Below, in pieces: positions 21,095 to 30,490 of a DNA stretch of 64,000 nt. The stretch lies in the NCBI GenBank assembly GCA_028688225.1, contig JAQTYQ010000014.1:1-64000 (forward strand), written 5' to 3'. A model generated the notes under the pieces. That model saw only the letters and a list, made by a program, of their open reading frames with translations, was not told the DNA's origin and ran no database searches. Numbering within the stretch: position 1 is the stretch's first letter; each line of letters opens with the position of its first letter. This DNA is from Opitutaceae bacterium (GTDB lineage Bacteria; Verrucomicrobiota; Verrucomicrobiia; Opitutales; Opitutaceae). Both the position numbers and the translations under genes were made by a program.

Positions 21095-21115
21095 AGGCTA
21101 TACTCGGTATAGCCT
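21095..21115. promoter_or_regulatory. Perfect inverted repeat AGGCTATAC-TCG-GTATAGCCT
   Basis: A 9-bp perfect inverted repeat with a 3-nt spacer lies in the AT-rich gap before the Fur-like gene. It could be an operator or a terminator stem for the kinase gene; no T-run follows, so an operator is favoured. Confidence 0.5.
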
Positions 21116-21121
21116 GATTCT

Positions 21122-21214
21122 GGAATAAATTTACTATGCAAAATATTGATCATCAATATATTACTATTATCATTGGAATAATTCCTATTCTCACTTGCTA
21201 TTTGGAACGATTCT
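21122..21214. promoter_or_regulatory. AT-rich regulatory region with GGAAT-type sites and ATATTGATCATCAATAT
   Basis: The odd palindrome ATATTGATCATCAATAT (21143-21159), the palindrome GGAATAATTCC (21175-21185), a near copy GGAACGATTCT (21204-21214), and a half-like GGAATAAAT (21122) crowd the gap just upstream of the Fur-like gene and suf genes. The strong AT shift against the GC-rich surroundings supports a promoter. Binding by the Fur-like protein is inference. Confidence 0.5.
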
Positions 21215-21229
21215 AATTCTCTTTACGCC

Positions 21230-21682
21230 ATGACGATGATCGCTGATACACAAAACCCCTCATTGGCGCAGAGGATCACCGACCGCGGACTCCGCCCCAC
21301 CCCGCAACGTGAAGTAGTTTATCAGGTCATCCTGGCCAAGCGCGATCATCCGACGGCGGAGGAGGTTTTCGCCCGCGTGAAGATTCTGATGTCCACCATC
21401 TCCCTGGCCACCGTCTACAATTGCCTCGAGGCCCTCGTCCAGTACGGCCTCATCAAGCAGGTCAACTTCGTGCGGGAACCCACGCGCTATTGTCCCAACC
21501 TCCACGAACATGCTCATTTCCACGATGAGGCCTCCGGCAAGATCCACGATATCGACATCCCGGCGGATCTCATGGCCCGTCTGCGTTCCCTGCTCCCTGC
21601 CGGCTATGCCGCCGTGAGCGTCGACCTCAGCTTCCGCGGCTCAGTGCGTTCAGCTCCCGCCCCGGCTGCTCACAACAACTGA
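21230..21682 (+). CDS. Fur-family transcriptional regulator adjacent to suf genes
   Basis: A 150-aa winged-helix protein: [56 protein letters not shown]. The sensor half keeps a His-rich HEHAHFHD but has no CxxC pair; where PerR and Fur have a Cys-containing segment it reads [11 protein letters not shown]. So the structural zinc site is absent and sensing may differ, as in Irr-type Fur proteins. It lies 34 nt before sufC in the same direction and probably controls the suf operon in response to iron, Fe-S demand or peroxide. Confidence 0.85.
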
Positions 21683-21716: not shown

Positions 21717-22478
21717 ATGAGTCAACTCGTCATCCAAGACCTCTGCGTTTCCATCGGCGAAAAACCCGTCGTCAAGGGCCTTTCGTTGACCGTCAATCAG
21801 GGCGAGGTCCATGCCGTCATGGGCCCCAATGGCACGGGCAAGTCCACCTTGGCCAAGGCCATCGCCGGCCATCCCGACTACTCCATCACCCAGGGCGACG
21901 TCCTTCTCGATGGCCGTTCGCTTCTTGCCATGGAGCCCGATGAGCGCGCCCGCGCCGGCCTCTTCCTCGCCTTTCAATACCCGAGCGAGGTTCCCGGCGT
22001 GACCATCGCCAACTTCATCCGTGCCGCCCTGCAGGCCCGCCGGGGGGAAAGCGCGGAACTGGATGCCACCGGTTACTACAAGCAACTCTACGAAAAGATG
22101 GACCTGCTGAAGATCGACCGGAAGTTCACCTCCCGCCCGGTCAACGAGGGGTTTTCCGGCGGCGAAAAGAAACGCTGCGAAATCCTCCAGCTGGCCATGC
22201 TCGACCCGAAGTTCGCCCTGATGGACGAGACCGACTCCGGTCTCGACATCGATGCGCTCCGGGTGGTCGCCGATGGCATCAACAAACTCCGCACCGGCCA
22301 GCTCGGCATCCTGCTCATCACCCATTACCAGCGCCTCCTCAATTACATCGTGCCCGACTTCGTCCACGTCATGTACGACGGGCGCATCGTCCGCAGCGGT
22401 GACAAGGATCTCGCCCTTGAGCTCGAAGCCAAGGGCTACGCCTGGGTGAAGAAGGAATTCGCTTACGCGAATTCCTAA
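21717..22478 (+). CDS. sufC: Fe-S assembly ATPase SufC
   Basis: A 253-aa ABC-type ATPase of the SufBCD scaffold. Walker [10 protein letters not shown], the SufC-typical [18 protein letters not shown], signature [13 protein letters not shown], Walker [17 protein letters not shown], and the H-loop [13 protein letters not shown]. It powers the SufB-SufD clamp that builds Fe-S clusters. It follows the Fur-like gene and precedes sufB by 38 nt. Confidence 0.97.
22454..22475. promoter_or_regulatory. Hairpin GGAATTCGC-TTAC-GCGAATTCC at the sufC end
   Basis: A perfect 9-bp stem with a 4-nt loop lies over the last sufC codons, and its right arm runs up to the TAA. No T-run follows, so it is more likely an mRNA processing or stability element between sufC and sufB than a terminator. 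Confidence 0.5.
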
Positions 22479-22516: not shown

Positions 22517-23971
<1,455 letters not shown>

Positions 23972-24054: not shown

Positions 24055-24068
24055 TCACCCAATTGCAC

Positions 24069-25463
24069 ATGTCAGCGATCCCAGCAGCGATTCCCCTTCT
24101 TCCCACCGGCGGTTTTACGCCCGCCGTGTTCGCCGCCCACCTCGCCGGTCTCGACCACCTCCCCGCGTGGTGGCTCGACCGGAAGCGCGAGGCGTGGAAC
24201 CGCTTCGTGGCGTTGCCGTTGCCGCAGCGCACCGATGAGCTCTGGCGCTTCAGCACGGTCGCCGGACTCAAGCTTGACGCCTATGCGCTGCCCGGAGCGG
24301 CGGCCGCGAACAGAGTGCGGACCGCGGATCTCGGATTTTCTTCCACGGCGTCGCTGACGTTTGCCAACAACCGGGCTATTTCTGCCGTGGCCCTGCCGGC
24401 CGACCTGCAAAAAAAGGGAGTCATCTTCGAACCGCTGGAAGAAGTCCTCACGCAGCACCCGGATCTGTTCCGGCAGCACTTCATGGCGCAACCGGTCAAC
24501 CTCGGCTCGGAAAAGTTTGCCGCGCTCAACGCCGCCCTGACCACGAGCGGTGCCTTTCTGTTCGTGCCGAAGGGGGTTGAGATCGCCGCCCCGCTTCAGG
24601 TCACCCACGTCATGGCGGAAGCTGGCGCCGCGGTTTTTCCCCACACCATCGTGGTCCTCGAAGACAACGCCAAGGCGACGCTGGTGGAGCACTTCGTGGG
24701 CCTGGAGGCGCCGCCAGTCGAGGGTCGAAGGTCGAAGGTCGAGCGCCTGCCGGCTCCCGCCTCCGGCCTCCCGCCTCCGGCCTCCGGTTGCTTTGCCGCC
24801 GGCGTCAACGATCTCTTCGCCGGCCCGGGCGCCCAGCTGACCTACGTCGGCATCCAGCGCTGGTCGCCGAACACGCTCGCCTTCCAGTTGAATTCCACGG
24901 TGGCGCAGCGCGACGCCCGCGTGCTCTCGCTCAACCTCCATCTCGGCGGCCGTCAGGCGCGCCACGAGTCGCACAGCCGCCTGCAGGGCCCCGGCAGCCA
25001 CAGCGAGATGCTCGCTCTCACGGTCGCCCAAGGCGCGCAGGAGTTCGACCAGCGCACCCTCCAGAGCCACCAGGCGCCGAACACCAGCTCGAACCTCCTC
25101 TACAAGAACGCCCTGCTCGACCGGGCGCGCACCATCTTCTCCGGCCTGATCGTCGTCGACCCCGACGCGCAGAAGACCGATGCCTACCAGGGCAACCGCA
25201 ACCTGCTGCTCAGCGACGAGGCCGAGGCCAACTCGCTGCCCGGGCTCGAGATCCAGGCCAACGACGTGCGCTGCACGCACGGCGCCACCTCCGGCCACGT
25301 GGACGAGGAGCAGATGTTCTACCTGAAGTCCCGCGGCATCCCGGCGCCGGCCGCGCGCGAACTGCTCGTCTTCGGCTTCTTCGAGGAGGTGCTCAACAAG
25401 CTGGAGAACGAGGAACTCCATGCCGCCTTGCGGACGCTCATCCAGGCGCAATTCAAGAAGTAA
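24069..25463 (+). CDS. sufD: Fe-S cluster assembly protein SufD
   Basis: A 464-aa SufB paralogue. The N-terminal helical part has WWLDRKREAWNRF and ELWRFSTVAGLKL; the beta-helix core has NAALTTSGAFLFVPKGVEI, FDQRTLQSHQAPNTSSNLLYKNALLDRARTIFSGLI, and the C-terminal GATSGHVDEEQMFYLKSRGI. An internal segment about residues 217-241 (VEGRRSKVERLPAPASGL...) is low complexity and encoded by short tandem repeats, unlike family members. The ATG is preferred over a TTG two codons earlier. It partners SufB and SufC. Confidence 0.95.
   Translation: MSAIPAAIPLLPTGGFTPAVFAAHLAGLDHLPAWWLDRKREAWNRFVALPLPQRTDELWRFSTVAGLKLDAYALPGAAAANRVRTADLGFSSTASLTFANNRAISAVALPADLQKKGVIFEPLEEVLTQHPDLFRQHFMAQPVNLGSEKFAALNAALTTSGAFLFVPKGVEIAAPLQVTHVMAEAGAAVFPHTIVVLEDNAKATLVEHFVGLEAPPVEGRRSKVERLPAPASGLPPPASGCFAAGVNDLFAGPGAQLTYVGIQRWSPNTLAFQLNSTVAQRDARVLSLNLHLGGRQARHESHSRLQGPGSHSEMLALTVAQGAQEFDQRTLQSHQAPNTSSNLLYKNALLDRARTIFSGLIVVDPDAQKTDAYQGNRNLLLSDEAEANSLPGLEIQANDVRCTHGATSGHVDEEQMFYLKSRGIPAPAARELLVFGFFEEVLNKLENEELHAALRTLIQAQFKK
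24716..24790. repeat. Short tandem repeats inserted in sufD
   Basis: GGTCGAAGGTCGAAGGTCGA is followed by GCCTCCGGCCTCC-like units, in frame inside sufD. They encode an Arg/Ser then Pro/Ala-rich loop between two beta-helix segments. Confidence 0.6.
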
Positions 25464-25578: not shown

Positions 25579-26118
25579 ATGACCAAGGAGCGCACCCTCA
25601 GCCGCGATGTCGCCGCCACCCAGATTCCCAGCGGCGACCGCATCACCCTCGCCGCCGGCGCCAGGATCCACATCACCCAGACCCTTGGCGGCAGTTACAC
25701 GGTCATGACCGACATCGGCCTCGCCCGCATCGACGGGGCCGACGCCGACGCGCTCGGGGAAAAGGCCGCTGATCAAGCGCCGTCGGCCGCCCCGGCGGCC
25801 GACGGCGCCCCCGACCCCGAGGCGATCTGGGACCAGCTCAAGAAAGTCTACGATCCCGAGATCCCGGTGAACATCGTCGATCTCGGCCTGGTGTATTCGA
25901 TGGACGTCGAAAAACTCGATCCGGGCTACCGCGTGAACATCTCGATGACGCTGACCGCGCCCGGATGCGGCATGGGACCGGCCATCGCCGAGGATGCCCG
26001 GGGCAAAGTCATGCTGGTGCCCGGGGTGAGCGCCGCCGACGTGCGCCTGGTCTGGGAACCGCCGTGGAACCAGTCGATGATCAGCGAGGAAGGCAAGATG
26101 CGTCTGGGCCTCGTCTGA
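25579..26118 (+). CDS. sufT: SufT-type Fe-S assembly factor (MIP18/DUF59 family)
   Basis: A 179-aa protein. The N-terminal region (SGDRITLAAGARIHITQTLGGSYTV, ADALGEKA) is characteristic of SufT; after an Ala/Asp/Pro-rich linker comes the MIP18 domain IWDQLKKVYDPEIPVNIVDLGLVYSMDV with the conserved DPE and the Cys in LTAPGCGMG. SufT helps mature Fe-S proteins. Its place at the end of sufCBD supports the call. The desulfurase SufS and sulfur carrier SufE/SufU are not in the window. Confidence 0.93.
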   Translation: MTKERTLSRDVAATQIPSGDRITLAAGARIHITQTLGGSYTVMTDIGLARIDGADADALGEKAADQAPSAAPAADGAPDPEAIWDQLKKVYDPEIPVNIVDLGLVYSMDVEKLDPGYRVNISMTLTAPGCGMGPAIAEDARGKVMLVPGVSAADVRLVWEPPWNQSMISEEGKMRLGLV

Positions 26119-26365: not shown

Positions 26366-29300
26366 TCATTTCAACGGCCAGCCGCCGGCGGTCGCGATGG
26401 CGGCGTCGATGTCGCGCATGAGCCGCGTGGTCTCGGCGAGCGCGGCGACGATCTGCGGATAGAGCCGGCGCTCGTCGATGGAAAGCTGCCGGCCGCGGCG
26501 ATCCTTCAGCCACTTCTCACAGACCTGATAGCCGCCGATGCGGAAGGCCCACGCCTCAGGCGTCACCCCTTCAAACCACTGCTCGGCGTTGATCCGCATC
26601 CGGCCCGGCTCGCTTCCGCGCGGCGGGAGATAGGTGACTTCCTGCACTTCGTCGCTGCCCTTATTGGGATAACTGACATGCAGCGCGCCCTTCGCCTTGA
26701 GAAGGTGAAGATCGACGAGGTCTTTGCCGAAACCACAGAGCTGGCGGAAGAGCTTTGCGTTGCTGGTCAGCGGTAGGCGCGGGTAATCGGTGCGAAGAAA
26801 CTCCGCGTAGCGCACGCGGTAGCCCGGGGCGTGAAAGACCGAGTAGGCGTAGTGCAGCACGTCTTCGGGGCCGAAGGTCCTTCTCCGGTCGCCGCCGCCG
26901 GCCGGGACAAACTTCAATTCCAGCCGGGTGGAGAACTCTTCAACAAATTTCGGCGCGAGGTTCGGTTTGGGGCCATCGTCTTCCTCGACGATGAGCTCGT
27001 CGGGCTTCTTCTCCTCGGGATAAAGATAGAGCGGGAGGCAACTCGCGTTGTCGAAAGGCGAGACCGCATCCTTGTCGATCAGCGTGTTGGCAACGAAGAA
27101 GCTGTCGACGTTGCCGCGCCGGGCGTTGCGGATGGTCAGCAGCGCAATGTTGTGCGCCGCGAGCATATGGCGCGAAAGTGAGTGGCGCGGGCGGCCCATC
27201 AATCCGAGCGCGTTTCCGGTATAGAACGTCCAACGCAAGTCGAAAGGCCGATAGAGAACACGCGCAAATTGACCTTTGGATTTTGCGAGATCGGCCTTCG
27301 CCCACTTCACCGACCACGCATCGCCATCGGGCGGCAAATCGTAACGAGCAATGATTTCCACCGCCGGGTGCTCGCGCACGAACTTCACCGTGGCACGCGC
27401 TGTGTCCTCACTGAAATGGTAGAGCAACGAATCGCGCTTGGTTTGGATGCCGGTGTTCCGCTCGGGGAAAATGTCCGCGAGGCTCCAGCAGGCCTTGTAT
27501 TCCTCCTCATGAGCGCCGTCCTTCGGCACGAACCAGAAATTGGGCGCCCGGGGCCGGAGCCGTTTCCACTTGGTGTTCGCGAGATCGTGGCCGTCGAGCC
27601 AGGCGTATTTGTCCTTCCGCCGTCCCCAGAGGTCGTGGTGATAAAGCGCGGCCAGCGCCCCGGACTGCCGGGGCTTCTTCGGGTCGGCGGGGAGCTTCAC
27701 GAACAGCGCCAGTGCGACGCCGACGGTGATGTCGAAGACGTTCTCGTCCTTCGAGCCGTCGGGGGCGGTCTCCTGCTTTTTCAGGCTGCCGTGGAGGTTG
27801 ACGATGTGGATTTCGTCGAACGCCTGCAGCAGGGCCTCGCGCATGCGGCGGTGCGTCAGGCCGTCGAGATAGACGTTGTTGGTGATGTAGGCGACGATCC
27901 CGGCGCCGGTCTGCTCAATGCGCCACTGCGCCCAGCGGATGAACTTGATGAAGTCGTCGTCGAGGTTGAGCTTCTTCTCCTTGAGCCCGCGTTTGTAATC
28001 GTCGAGTAGCCCGCGAATCCACTCGCCGCGGTTGAGCCGCCCGAAGTTGGAGTACGGAGGGTTGCCCAGCACGACCAGGACGGGGAGCTTGGCTTTGACG
28101 GCGGCGGCCGCCTCGGCCTCGCGGCTGATGGACTCGGCCGGGCCGATGAGCTGCTGGAGCTTGTGGCCGGCGTCGTCGAGCGTGTTGGTGAGGTAGATGT
28201 TGAGCCGCTCGCCGGGCTGGAACTCGTAGGTCCACTGATCGCGCCAGAGTTGATCAAGGTCGCGCGCGGCCAGCTCGAGCCCGAGCTTGAAATGGGCGAC
28301 GGCGTAGGGCGCCATCAGCAGCTCGAACCCGAAGAGGCGCGGCAGCAGATCGCGCTGCACATAACCCGGCCACTGGCCGGCATCGTTGCGGGCGATGAAC
28401 TGGTCGCGGATCAAACGGATGACGGCGTAGAGAAAGGTGGCCGTGCCGGCGGCCGGATCGAGCAGGAGCACGCGGTGTGGCGCATCCTTGTCGGCCGACA
28501 CCCGCGAGGCGTCGGCCACGCCCTCCTTGAGGGCGAAGCGGTCCTTCAGCAGCCGGTCGACCGAGCGGACGAGCCAGCCGACCACCGGCTCGGGCGTGTA
28601 GTAGACGCCACGCATCTCCTTCAGCTTCGGGTCGTACGCGCCGAGGAAGGTCTCGTAGAAATGCAGCATGGGATCGGCGCGACCGCCCCGGCGGCCGAAG
28701 TTCTCCAGCAGCGCGTAGATGTCGGTGAGATCGAGCGTCTGCACGAGGTCGGCGACAAAAGGAGAAAAAGGCTCCTCGCTCATCCGCGGGCCGGTGATGA
28801 GGTAGAAGAAATCGTGGAGGAAGGGATTGGTGCGCGGGATGCGCTTCTGCGCCTCCGCCATGTCGAAGCTGTTGCCGCCGCCCATGATGCGCGCGGAGAA
28901 AAGGCCGTAGGCGAGCGTCTGCGCAAACATGTCGGCGAAGTCGGCAGGCTGGAGATCGGGCAGCAATGTTTGCTCAAAGGCCTTGTGCCAGCTCCGGAGC
29001 AAGGGAGACGCCCGGCCTGATTCGAATTCGTCGACAATCAAGTCGCGAACCAGGTGGGTAATGCGCGCCATCCGGCGGGCGAGTTCCTCCGGGTGGTTGA
29101 TTCCCTGCGGGGCATGGCCGACAAAGTCGCTCAGCAGCGCGAGGGCGGTGGAATGGTCGGCGGAATCGACGGCCAGTTTTCCCGAGGCGAGCAGCCGCGC
29201 GAGGCGGGCGGTGGCGCGTTTCTCACCGTCGACATACCAGCGCAGCTCGAGGTAGTCGGTGAGCAGGAGATTGGACAGTGACCGGCGGTAGCGCCTGAGC

Positions 29301-29575
29301 TGCTCGGACTGCTCGGCCTCGTCGAGCGAGACGCCGATGTCCTTGGCTTCGATATAGCCAAGGGTCAGATCGGCCTTGAACGTAGTGACGATGAAGTCGG
29401 GCGCGCCGGCCGCGGAGCGCTTGGGCTCGTTGGTCGTCAACGCCTTTGGCGCCACGTCGAGCATTAGCCCGATGAAAAACGGCCGATAGGTGTGCTCAGT
29501 GGCATCGCCGCGCAGCCGGGCGCGTTCGACCTCGCGCAAGTAGGCATCGATCGCAGCCGTTGGGTTGGTCGGCAT
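26366..29575 (-). CDS. Single-chain restriction-modification enzyme, type IIG / ISP-like
   Basis: A 1069-aa enzyme. Residues 1-110 form a PD-(D/E)xK-like nuclease domain (APDFIVT with D60; GYIEAKDIG with E76 and K78). A helical region follows. The N6-adenine methylase has motif I DPAAGTATF (373-381) and motif IV NPPY (505-508). The C-terminal part (DVLHYAYSVFHAPGYRVRYAEF, RQLCGFGKDLVDLHLL) resembles the target-recognition domain of type ISP enzymes. There is no helicase domain, so cleavage should not need translocation. It would methylate and cut the same asymmetric site. The ATG lies after a strong Shine-Dalgarno buried in a hairpin. No separate methylase or specificity gene. Confidence 0.85.
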   Translation of the reverse strand: MPTNPTAAIDAYLREVERARLRGDATEHTYRPFFIGLMLDVAPKALTTNEPKRSAAGAPDFIVTTFKADLTLGYIEAKDIGVSLDEAEQSEQLRRYRRSLSNLLLTDYLELRWYVDGEKRATARLARLLASGKLAVDSADHSTALALLSDFVGHAPQGINHPEELARRMARITHLVRDLIVDEFESGRASPLLRSWHKAFEQTLLPDLQPADFADMFAQTLAYGLFSARIMGGGNSFDMAEAQKRIPRTNPFLHDFFYLITGPRMSEEPFSPFVADLVQTLDLTDIYALLENFGRRGGRADPMLHFYETFLGAYDPKLKEMRGVYYTPEPVVGWLVRSVDRLLKDRFALKEGVADASRVSADKDAPHRVLLLDPAAGTATFLYAVIRLIRDQFIARNDAGQWPGYVQRDLLPRLFGFELLMAPYAVAHFKLGLELAARDLDQLWRDQWTYEFQPGERLNIYLTNTLDDAGHKLQQLIGPAESISREAEAAAAVKAKLPVLVVLGNPPYSNFGRLNRGEWIRGLLDDYKRGLKEKKLNLDDDFIKFIRWAQWRIEQTGAGIVAYITNNVYLDGLTHRRMREALLQAFDEIHIVNLHGSLKKQETAPDGSKDENVFDITVGVALALFVKLPADPKKPRQSGALAALYHHDLWGRRKDKYAWLDGHDLANTKWKRLRPRAPNFWFVPKDGAHEEEYKACWSLADIFPERNTGIQTKRDSLLYHFSEDTARATVKFVREHPAVEIIARYDLPPDGDAWSVKWAKADLAKSKGQFARVLYRPFDLRWTFYTGNALGLMGRPRHSLSRHMLAAHNIALLTIRNARRGNVDSFFVANTLIDKDAVSPFDNASCLPLYLYPEEKKPDELIVEEDDGPKPNLAPKFVEEFSTRLELKFVPAGGGDRRRTFGPEDVLHYAYSVFHAPGYRVRYAEFLRTDYPRLPLTSNAKLFRQLCGFGKDLVDLHLLKAKGALHVSYPNKGSDEVQEVTYLPPRGSEPGRMRINAEQWFEGVTPEAWAFRIGGYQVCEKWLKDRRGRQLSIDERRLYPQIVAALAETTRLMRDIDAAIATAGGWPLK

Positions 29576-29592
29576 AGGAGGTGGTACCTCCT
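29576..29592 (-). promoter_or_regulatory. Hairpin sequestering the Shine-Dalgarno of the restriction-modification gene
   Basis: On the mRNA strand AGGAGGT-ACC-ACCTCCT is a perfect 7-bp stem with a 3-nt loop. Its left arm is the Shine-Dalgarno (AAAGGAGGT) and its right arm is an exact anti-Shine-Dalgarno ending at the base before the ATG. Folding would hide the ribosome site. Confidence 0.7.
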
Positions 29593-29686
29593 TTGTAGGT
29601 CTTGGAATCTTCAAAGCAACTCCTAGTTCGATCACGGCAGGCCAGGGACTTGAATTTCCCGCTTCGGCGGCCAATGTGCTTGTCCC

Positions 29687-30490
29687 ATGCTGTTCTCCGC
29701 CGATCACTGCATCGCCATCCTCGACGCGGTCCGCAGCCGCCAGCCGCTGGTGCACAACATCACCAATTACGTGGTGATGAACAACACGGCCAACGCCCTC
29801 CTCGCGCTCGGCGCCTCGCCCGCCATGGTCCATGCGATCGAGGAGGTCGAGGAATTCGTCGCTCTCTCCCAGGCGCTGGTGATCAACATCGGCACACTCT
29901 CCAAACCCTGGATCAAGGCCATGGACAAAGCCGCCGGCGCCGCCAATGCCCGCGGGATTCCGTGGGTGCTCGATCCCGTCGGCGCCGGCGCCACGGCGCT
30001 GCGTACCGATACCTCGGCCGACCTCGCCCGGCTCCACCCCGCCTGCATCCGCGGCAACGCCAGCGAAATCATGGTGCTCGCCGGCGCCACCGCCGAGAAG
30101 ACCAAGGGCGTCGACTCCTCGCACGGCTCGGCGGACGCCCTCGCCCCCGCGCGACAGCTCGCCAAAGCCACCGGCGCCATCGTGGCCGTGACCGGCGCCA
30201 CCGACTACGTCACCGACGGCACCCGGCTCATCGGCCTGGCCAACGGCCATCCGCTGATGGCGAAAGTCACCGGCCTCGGCTGCACGGCCACCGCGCTGGT
30301 CGGGGCGGCGCTCGCCGTCGAGAAGGACCGTCTCGCCGCCGTCGCCGCCGGCTTGAGCTTCCTCGCCATCGCCGGGGAGATCGCCGCCGAGAAAAGTCCC
30401 GGCCCCGGCTCGCTTCAGCTCCATCTCCTCGACGCCCTGCATCTGCTCGACGCGCCGACGATCCGGCGCCGGCTCAAGGTCGTGGCATGA
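29687..30490 (+). CDS. thiM: Hydroxyethylthiazole kinase
   Basis: A 267-aa ribokinase-like kinase that phosphorylates 4-methyl-5-(2-hydroxyethyl)thiazole in thiamine salvage. Motifs: LVHNITNYVVMNNTANALLALGASP, WVLDPVGAGAT, IRGNASEI, and the catalytic GLGCTATAL near the C-terminus. Length is normal. Its TGA overlaps the thiE ATG (ATGA). No TPP riboswitch signature is visible upstream. Confidence 0.96.
   Translation: MLFSADHCIAILDAVRSRQPLVHNITNYVVMNNTANALLALGASPAMVHAIEEVEEFVALSQALVINIGTLSKPWIKAMDKAAGAANARGIPWVLDPVGAGATALRTDTSADLARLHPACIRGNASEIMVLAGATAEKTKGVDSSHGSADALAPARQLAKATGAIVAVTGATDYVTDGTRLIGLANGHPLMAKVTGLGCTATALVGAALAVEKDRLAAVAAGLSFLAIAGEIAAEKSPGPGSLQLHLLDALHLLDAPTIRRRLKVVA

Follow-up and report, generated by a model that had tools for sequence, protein, structure and literature searches.

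Which signal is read by a Fur-family protein whose gene heads an iron-sulfur assembly (suf) operon and which lacks the cysteine zinc site of its family? This question is raised by a gene in a 64,000-nucleotide stretch of DNA from an Opitutaceae bacterium (the window, i.e., the whole stretch that was analysed). A first-pass annotation had proposed that loss of the structural zinc site, together with linkage to suf genes, points to a distinct sensing mode.

Fur-family regulator at the head of the suf operon

The regulator reading frame encodes a protein of 150 aa that contains the stretch HEHAHFHD and no CxxC motif. The Fur superfamily (PF01475; 76.9 bits versus a cut-off of 23.1) is the only family above its cut-off for this protein, which belongs to neither the SufR nor the Rrf2 family. 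The sufC gene starts 34 bp 3′ of the regulator gene and is followed by sufB, sufD, and sufT, with all four genes scoring above the respective NCBIfam cut-offs:

21230..21682, + strand: suf-linked Fur-family regulator gene, PerR/Irr-type, without CxxC (from reading frame, profile, alignment, and tree)
21717..22478, + strand: sufC, Fe-S assembly ATPase (TIGR01978, 351.5 bits versus cut-off 212.8)
22517..23971, + strand: sufB (TIGR01980, 621.6 bits versus cut-off 346.4)
24063..25463, + strand: sufD (TIGR01981, 259.6 bits versus cut-off 222)
25579..26118, + strand: sufT, long form (TIGR03406, 218.9 bits versus cut-off 202.6)

Thus, the translation, the PF01475 match, and the NCBIfam scores bear out the first-pass description of a Fur-family gene with HEHAHFHD, without CxxC, and linked to sufC-sufB-sufD-sufT. 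An AlphaFold2 model of the regulator (metal-free monomer, 36 sequences) has a pLDDT of 89.4, and its closest structure is the Mn-bound, DNA-bound Magnetospirillum Fur 4rb1 (Z 15.8, rmsd 2.1, 130 aligned), tied with 1mzb (Z 15.7, rmsd 2.5, 131 aligned) and Leptospira PerR 5nl9 (Z 15.3, rmsd 2.8, 136 aligned). The profile score and the Fur-family structures among the top model matches together place the regulator in the Fur superfamily.

The window genome (4.3 Mb, 129 contigs) carries two further Fur-family genes, of a different sequence type, and has its sufS and NifU_N-type genes on another contig (C73). As to the first-pass remark that other bacteria use IscR or SufR, the genome encodes three Rrf2 proteins, none of them on the regulator's contig, two of which bear Cys clusters. 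The Rrf2-family loci L199 and L200, which have a Cys cluster (CVSQTAYEKCSCPDETHC), are not near suf, and a porin-like reading frame was noticed by eye near each of them. Adjoining sufT, a large reading frame on the minus strand (26366-30442) contains a GNPPYS stretch and, by eye, possibly encodes a combined restriction-modification enzyme.

Conservation of suf linkage in Verrucomicrobiia

Matches to the regulator were found in 35 of 38 close genomes at E ≤ 0.001, a cut-off that also lets paralogues in (e.g., the best match in G001 is a paralogue). Scanning 288 genomes of the phylum at E ≤ 1e-15 gave a match in 81 of them, namely, the own genome, 21 of 24 genomes from the same family, 16 of 18 from the same order, 35 of 50 from the same class, and 8 others of the phylum; all 80 named loci are titled as Verrucomicrobiota (Opitutia, Opitutae, Opitutaceae, and similar). 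Directly after the regulator gene, sufC was found in all 16 same-class loci inspected (out of 35 matches). Outside the class, seven of the eight matches were inspected, of which six are unlinked and one (L153) ends at a contig end. Overall, sufC is the next gene on the same strand in 153 of 162 loci, which are not all independent as some genomes occur in both collections (residue counts below use 145 distinct proteins); three loci are cut by a contig end (L048, L080, and L153), and the six without suf linkage are distant non-suf homologues. The gap between the regulator and sufC has a median of 46 bp in the loci examined. The linkage of the regulator to suf is not due to chance. At one locus (L159, 3012-3248 and following), the suf-linked regulator is split over two frames, which points either to gene decay or to a fault in the assembly.

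Tandem operator and target range

An unsupervised palindromic search of 142 de-duplicated 250-bp upstream regions yielded the motif AaTTAGAAT.ATTCTAAtT, with a log-likelihood gain of 1566 versus 21-39 in three shuffled sets. The candidate operator upstream of the regulator gene is a 7-1-7 palindrome, TTRGAAYNRTTCYAA; of 136 de-duplicated upstream regions linked to suf, 130 score at least 12 bits, versus 0.35 of 136 in shuffles. Two sites are present in 81 of the 136 regions, spaced by exactly 29 bp in 71 of these. The window contains both copies, where 0.03 matches would be expected by chance at up to one mismatch, and a promoter candidate ends at the first of them:

21146..21173, + strand: sigma-70-like promoter candidate TTGATC-16-TATCAT (consensus match only, weak; ends at operator copy 1)
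21171..21189, + strand: operator copy 1, CATTGGAATAATTCCTATT (15-base core 21173-21187, one mismatch to TTRGAAYNRTTCYAA)
21200..21218, + strand: operator copy 2, ATTTGGAACGATTCTAATT (core 21202-21216, no mismatch; exactly 29 bp from copy 1)

The promoter scan gave two matches versus 0.7 expected, and promoter and terminator signals are weak. The PerR box TTATAATNATTATAA has the same 7-1-7 spacing as the suf-regulator operator (PMC545781). Two other repeats were dropped as operator candidates, being absent from the four same-genus upstream sequences compared: a perfect inverted repeat between a histidine kinase gene and the regulator (AGGCTATAC-TCG-GTATAGCCT, 21095-21115), and a palindrome upstream of the operator pair (ATATTGATCATCAATAT, 21143-21159).

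When the operator model was trained without the class-level loci and compared with 300 shuffles per locus, it outscored every shuffle at 9 of these 16 suf-linked loci, including all five whose proteins keep two CxxC motifs (L143-L147), and at 0 of 7 non-suf homologues. Among the seven class-level loci failing this comparison, L138, L139, L140, L148, L149, and L162 are marginal and L165 has nothing; L139, L140, and L162 are near-identical to one another. The regulator gene heads the suf operon and has a conserved operator in front of it, which is the arrangement of a suf-operon autoregulator, the functional class of SufR and IscR.

Judging from operator scans, the suf operon that it belongs to seems to be nearly the only target of the regulator, throughout a large bacterial class. 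At up to one mismatch, the own 4.3-Mb genome has three operator places, two before the regulator and the third inside a 454-aa reading frame; the pattern scan found no operator on contig C73, which carries the sufS and NifU_N-type genes. Exact matches across 38 genomes numbered 39, with 33 directly upstream of a suf-linked regulator and 6 elsewhere, versus 4 for a reversed control pattern; as the pattern was derived from these same upstream regions, the telling point is the small number of sites elsewhere. These six sites, five of which fall within open frames of more than 150 aa and one of which (L238) does not, are approximately at the control level, and a broad regulon was not found at exact match in the 38 genomes. 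At one mismatch, the summed totals were 250 sites in relatives versus 177 for the control pattern, and a few weaker further targets are possible.

A distinct clade with PerR/Irr marks

A maximum-likelihood tree built from 84 proteins separates the 44 suf-linked rows, by a branch with support of 100/97, from all rows of Fur, Zur, PerR, Irr, and Mur-like proteins and of the own-genome paralogues. Given the weak placement (86/86) of the neighbouring rows (IrrA and PerR-like proteins from the non-suf set) and the length of several reference branches, the claim is limited to the clade being distinct. That the suf-linked regulators form a distinct clade across the class Verrucomicrobiia is well supported by this tree. 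The comparison with Fur, PerR, Zur, and Irr that had been suggested as a check thereby placed the regulator in a separate clade, not within a known Fur/PerR clade, and the 84-protein tree and the alignments did not put it clearly into any known clade that has another, intact zinc site.

No own-family NCBIfam cut-off was reached by the window regulator: the nearest model was the PerRB exception model (80.0 versus 250 bits), and scores were also below the cut-offs of two PerR models (73.1 versus 180 for NF052545; 63.3 versus 200 for NF047406) and of the IrrA (72.5 versus 150) and Irr (67.1 versus 170) models. The two IrrA rows pair with each other (100/99) outside the suf clade, arguing against placement with Irr. 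Eight PerR/Irr/Fur-type models match all 36 members of the representative alignment, and the Zur model matches 4 of the 36.

Family marks are described at two positions: Asp (PerR/Irr) versus Glu (Fur/Zur/Mur/Nur) at the PerR Asp104 position and, in the recognition helix, Asn (PerR/Irr) in place of Arg (PMC8638967). The suf-linked proteins carry both of the PerR marks, i.e., Asp107 (144 of the 144 rows with a letter) and Asn64 (110/110), and the marks of Fur sensu stricto and Zur (Glu at 107, Arg in the recognition helix) are absent.

The same genomes carry a second Fur-type paralogue group with the stretch LVTVYRCL (L001, L185, L190, L192, and L198), in which CxxC is lost in L190, L192, and L198 and kept in L001 and L185. 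Fur-family genes were also seen beside katG (L169 and L170; Granulicella and Streptomyces plasmid records), i.e., in PerR-like neighbourhoods.

Proposed regulatory metal site

Across the 145 distinct suf-linked proteins, His40 is found in 145 of 145, and His94, His96, and Asp107 each in 144 of 144; these four residues align with hinge-site ligands of the PerR, Fur, Irr, and Mur-like rows. Position 88, which aligns with Asp/Glu of the PerR, Irr, Fur, and Mur-like rows (E. coli Zur being ambiguous by one column), is occupied by Cys in 142 proteins, Glu in one (L156), and Asp in one (L158), with a gap in the broken L159. Glu and Asp as the only exceptions are what would be expected of a metal ligand. 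The five-ligand site of PerR with Asp85, which we take to be the equivalent of position 88, is altered in nearly all suf-linked proteins, which have Cys88. On this alignment, Cys88 in place of PerR Asp85 is the distinctive feature of the putative regulatory site, and His40, Cys88, His94, His96, and Asp107 are proposed as the regulatory metal site. A cysteine at position 88 would also be compatible with zinc or with an Fe-S cluster. The Asp-to-Cys change, missed in the first-pass annotation, is a better clue to sensing than the loss of CxxC. The hinge-site ligands reported for E. coli Fur are His33, Glu81, His88, and His90 (PMC10318462).

Loss of the structural zinc site

The two CxxC motifs of a structural Zn(Cys)4 site are missing from the window regulator. 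Among the 145 distinct suf-linked proteins, two CxxC are present in 5 (L143-L147), one in 4, and none in 136, and Cys at position 99, the first Cys of the old motif, is present in 17; hence, the description as lacking the cysteine zinc site holds for the window regulator and most of its relatives, and not for those that keep one or two motifs. In the tree, the five double-CxxC keepers form two branches apart from the CxxC-less groups, and non-suf outgroup proteins mostly have CxxC, which makes loss within the suf clade the likelier direction. L143-L147 share their genomic place and operator with CxxC-less relatives, so the suf linkage did not arise from loss of the zinc site, and this loss brought no new DNA target. 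PerRA, PerRB, and Irr are reported to be likewise without CxxC (PMC8638967); together with the CxxC-keeping members of the clade, this indicates that the loss is not rare and does not by itself signal a new sensing mode. The proposal that it points to a distinct sensing mode is, to that extent, not supported. The zinc site of the dimerization domain would be dispensable and was probably lost in most of the suf clade.

Proposed mechanism and alternatives

The conserved linkage, the tandem operator with 29-bp spacing, the near-single target, and the PerR/Irr-type site with a thiolate suggest that the regulator is a PerR/Irr-type repressor that is dedicated to suf, controls its own gene, and depends on metal bound at a mononuclear site, a reading that is considered somewhat probable. 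The earlier view of a Fur-type protein as the likely dedicated suf regulator is supported by the own clade (100/97), near-universal linkage, and adjacent operator. In the proposed mechanism, a dimer would bind each palindrome when the His40/Cys88/His94/His96/Asp107 site holds a divalent metal, most likely Fe(II); metal binding would close the caliper shape that the model resembles, and the promoter would be blocked. Iron shortage, or peroxide oxidation of the thiolate/His site, would lead to metal loss and departure of the dimer from DNA, and this release would switch on the fur-sufC-sufB-sufD-sufT operon, including the regulator's own gene. As the promoter match is weak, the preference for repression over activation draws on the placement of the sites.

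Alternatively, the regulator could be an Fe-S sensor, in which Cys88, His94, His96, and other cysteines (Cys65, often Cys72) would hold a Suf-delivered [2Fe-2S] cluster, providing product feedback like that of IscR and SufR, converged on the Fur fold. The prevalence of Cys65 (143/145), Cys88 (142/144), and Cys72 (114/145) in the regulator of the suf operon itself favours this possibility, which is nevertheless regarded as unlikely. In E. coli Fur, a [2Fe-2S] cluster has been reported at site 3 (Cys93, Cys96, and Cys133; PMC10318462); however, these cysteines are exactly those absent here, although Cys88 and Cys65 leave another cluster route open. Cys72 is Tyr in the window regulator and variable elsewhere, Cys65 is Thr in two proteins, and both are less telling because Cys65 is also carried by a non-suf Fur paralogue group (L001, L185, L187, L190, L192, and L198). 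In addition, Glu or Asp at position 88 in two proteins suits a mononuclear site better. For these reasons, a three-cysteine cluster site (Cys65, Cys72, and Cys88) was demoted as the main reading.

It is also conceivable, with similarly low confidence, that a Fur-fold Suf sensor of the whole class reads the output of the pathway via thiolate-ligated iron or an Fe-S centre at the hinge; just as tentatively, its ligands would be Cys88 with His94 and His96, perhaps Cys65, and we know of no Fur-family iron sensor with such a thiolate hinge ligand set. If true, such sensing would have converged with that of IscR and SufR and would not depend on the Cys93/Cys96 site that has been claimed for E. coli Fur.

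An Irr-like mode is less likely still. The regulator would then bind DNA at low iron and be inactivated by heme or iron, with suf held down in starvation. The missing CxxC, the HxH motif, Asp107, and the IrrA profile matches to all 36 representative members are consistent with such a mode, as is the operator core TTAGAA-N3-TTCTAA, which equals what we take to be the Irr box. Irr is reported to repress its targets under iron depletion, and suf genes to be raised in a Rhodobacter irr mutant (PMC3413700). However, the regulator scores below both Irr cut-offs, and the IrrA pair lies outside its clade. Moreover, a suf operon that is off at low iron would be the opposite of the situation in most bacteria.

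A zinc-type sensor, with a Cys-containing N2OS site as in Zur and a suf operon answering to zinc, is quite improbable: the C-x5-H-x-H spacing is presumably the same as that of the ScZur ligands, but Asp107 and Asn64, in place of Glu and Arg, are PerR/Irr marks, few representative members are matched by the Zur model, and another Fur-family gene in the genome (L003) could be Zur. Zur regulatory sites are described as N2OS, with the S. coelicolor M-site mutated at Cys79 and His87 (PMC11077047). Least probable of all is an ordinary PerR merely located beside suf and having a broad peroxide regulon, since, despite PerR profiles among the best matches and mostly kept PerR-type ligands, the regulator is far below the PerR cut-offs, belongs to its own clade, has Cys for Asp85, and has an operator nearly confined to the suf operon.

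Significance and comparison with known systems

The suf-linked regulators constitute a real and conserved subfamily, apparently not described before, within a known family; their target is clear and their ligand unusual. In the literature searched (titles and abstract starts), no report of a Fur-family suf regulator in Verrucomicrobia was recognised, and none on the control of iron-sulfur assembly in Verrucomicrobiia was found. The subfamily offers a natural series, with Cys, Glu, or Asp at position 88 and with relatives that have or lack the structural zinc site at the same genomic place, which lets one ask what the zinc site is for and how a thiolate affects iron or peroxide sensing in the Fur fold. 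It also bears on the open question of what Fur proteins respond to, free iron or Fe-S clusters.

SufR and IscR belong to protein families unrelated to Fur. Magnetospirillum Fur (4rb1) and Mur (5fd5/5fd6) are the best structural matches of the regulator model, and the matched stretch of MgFur likewise lacks CxxC, whereas the Mur-like row has Glu at positions 88 and 107, unlike the regulator (Cys88 and Asp107). Both Magnetospirillum Fur and Mur have iron or manganese uptake regulons. PerR of Streptococcus mutans, reported to repress sufCDSUB most clearly in iron-rich medium, provides a precedent for a Fur-family protein repressing suf, but it is described as the sole Fur-family protein there and has an oxidative-stress role (PMC11631912). 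Irr/IrrA of alphaproteobacteria share with the regulator the absence of CxxC, the HxH motif, Asp107, and a neighbouring, weakly supported place in the tree (86/86); in contrast, both IrrA rows have Asp at position 88 and lie outside the suf clade, and the regulator is below the Irr cut-offs. Leptospira PerRA and PerRB (5nl9 being a Leptospira PerR) also lack CxxC. With PerR, the regulator shares the fold (Z 15.3), the His/His/His/Asp ligands, the recognition-helix Asn, and the 7-1-7 operator, but it differs in having Cys88 instead of Asp85, a target range of nearly one operon, a separate clade, and scores below the PerR cut-offs.
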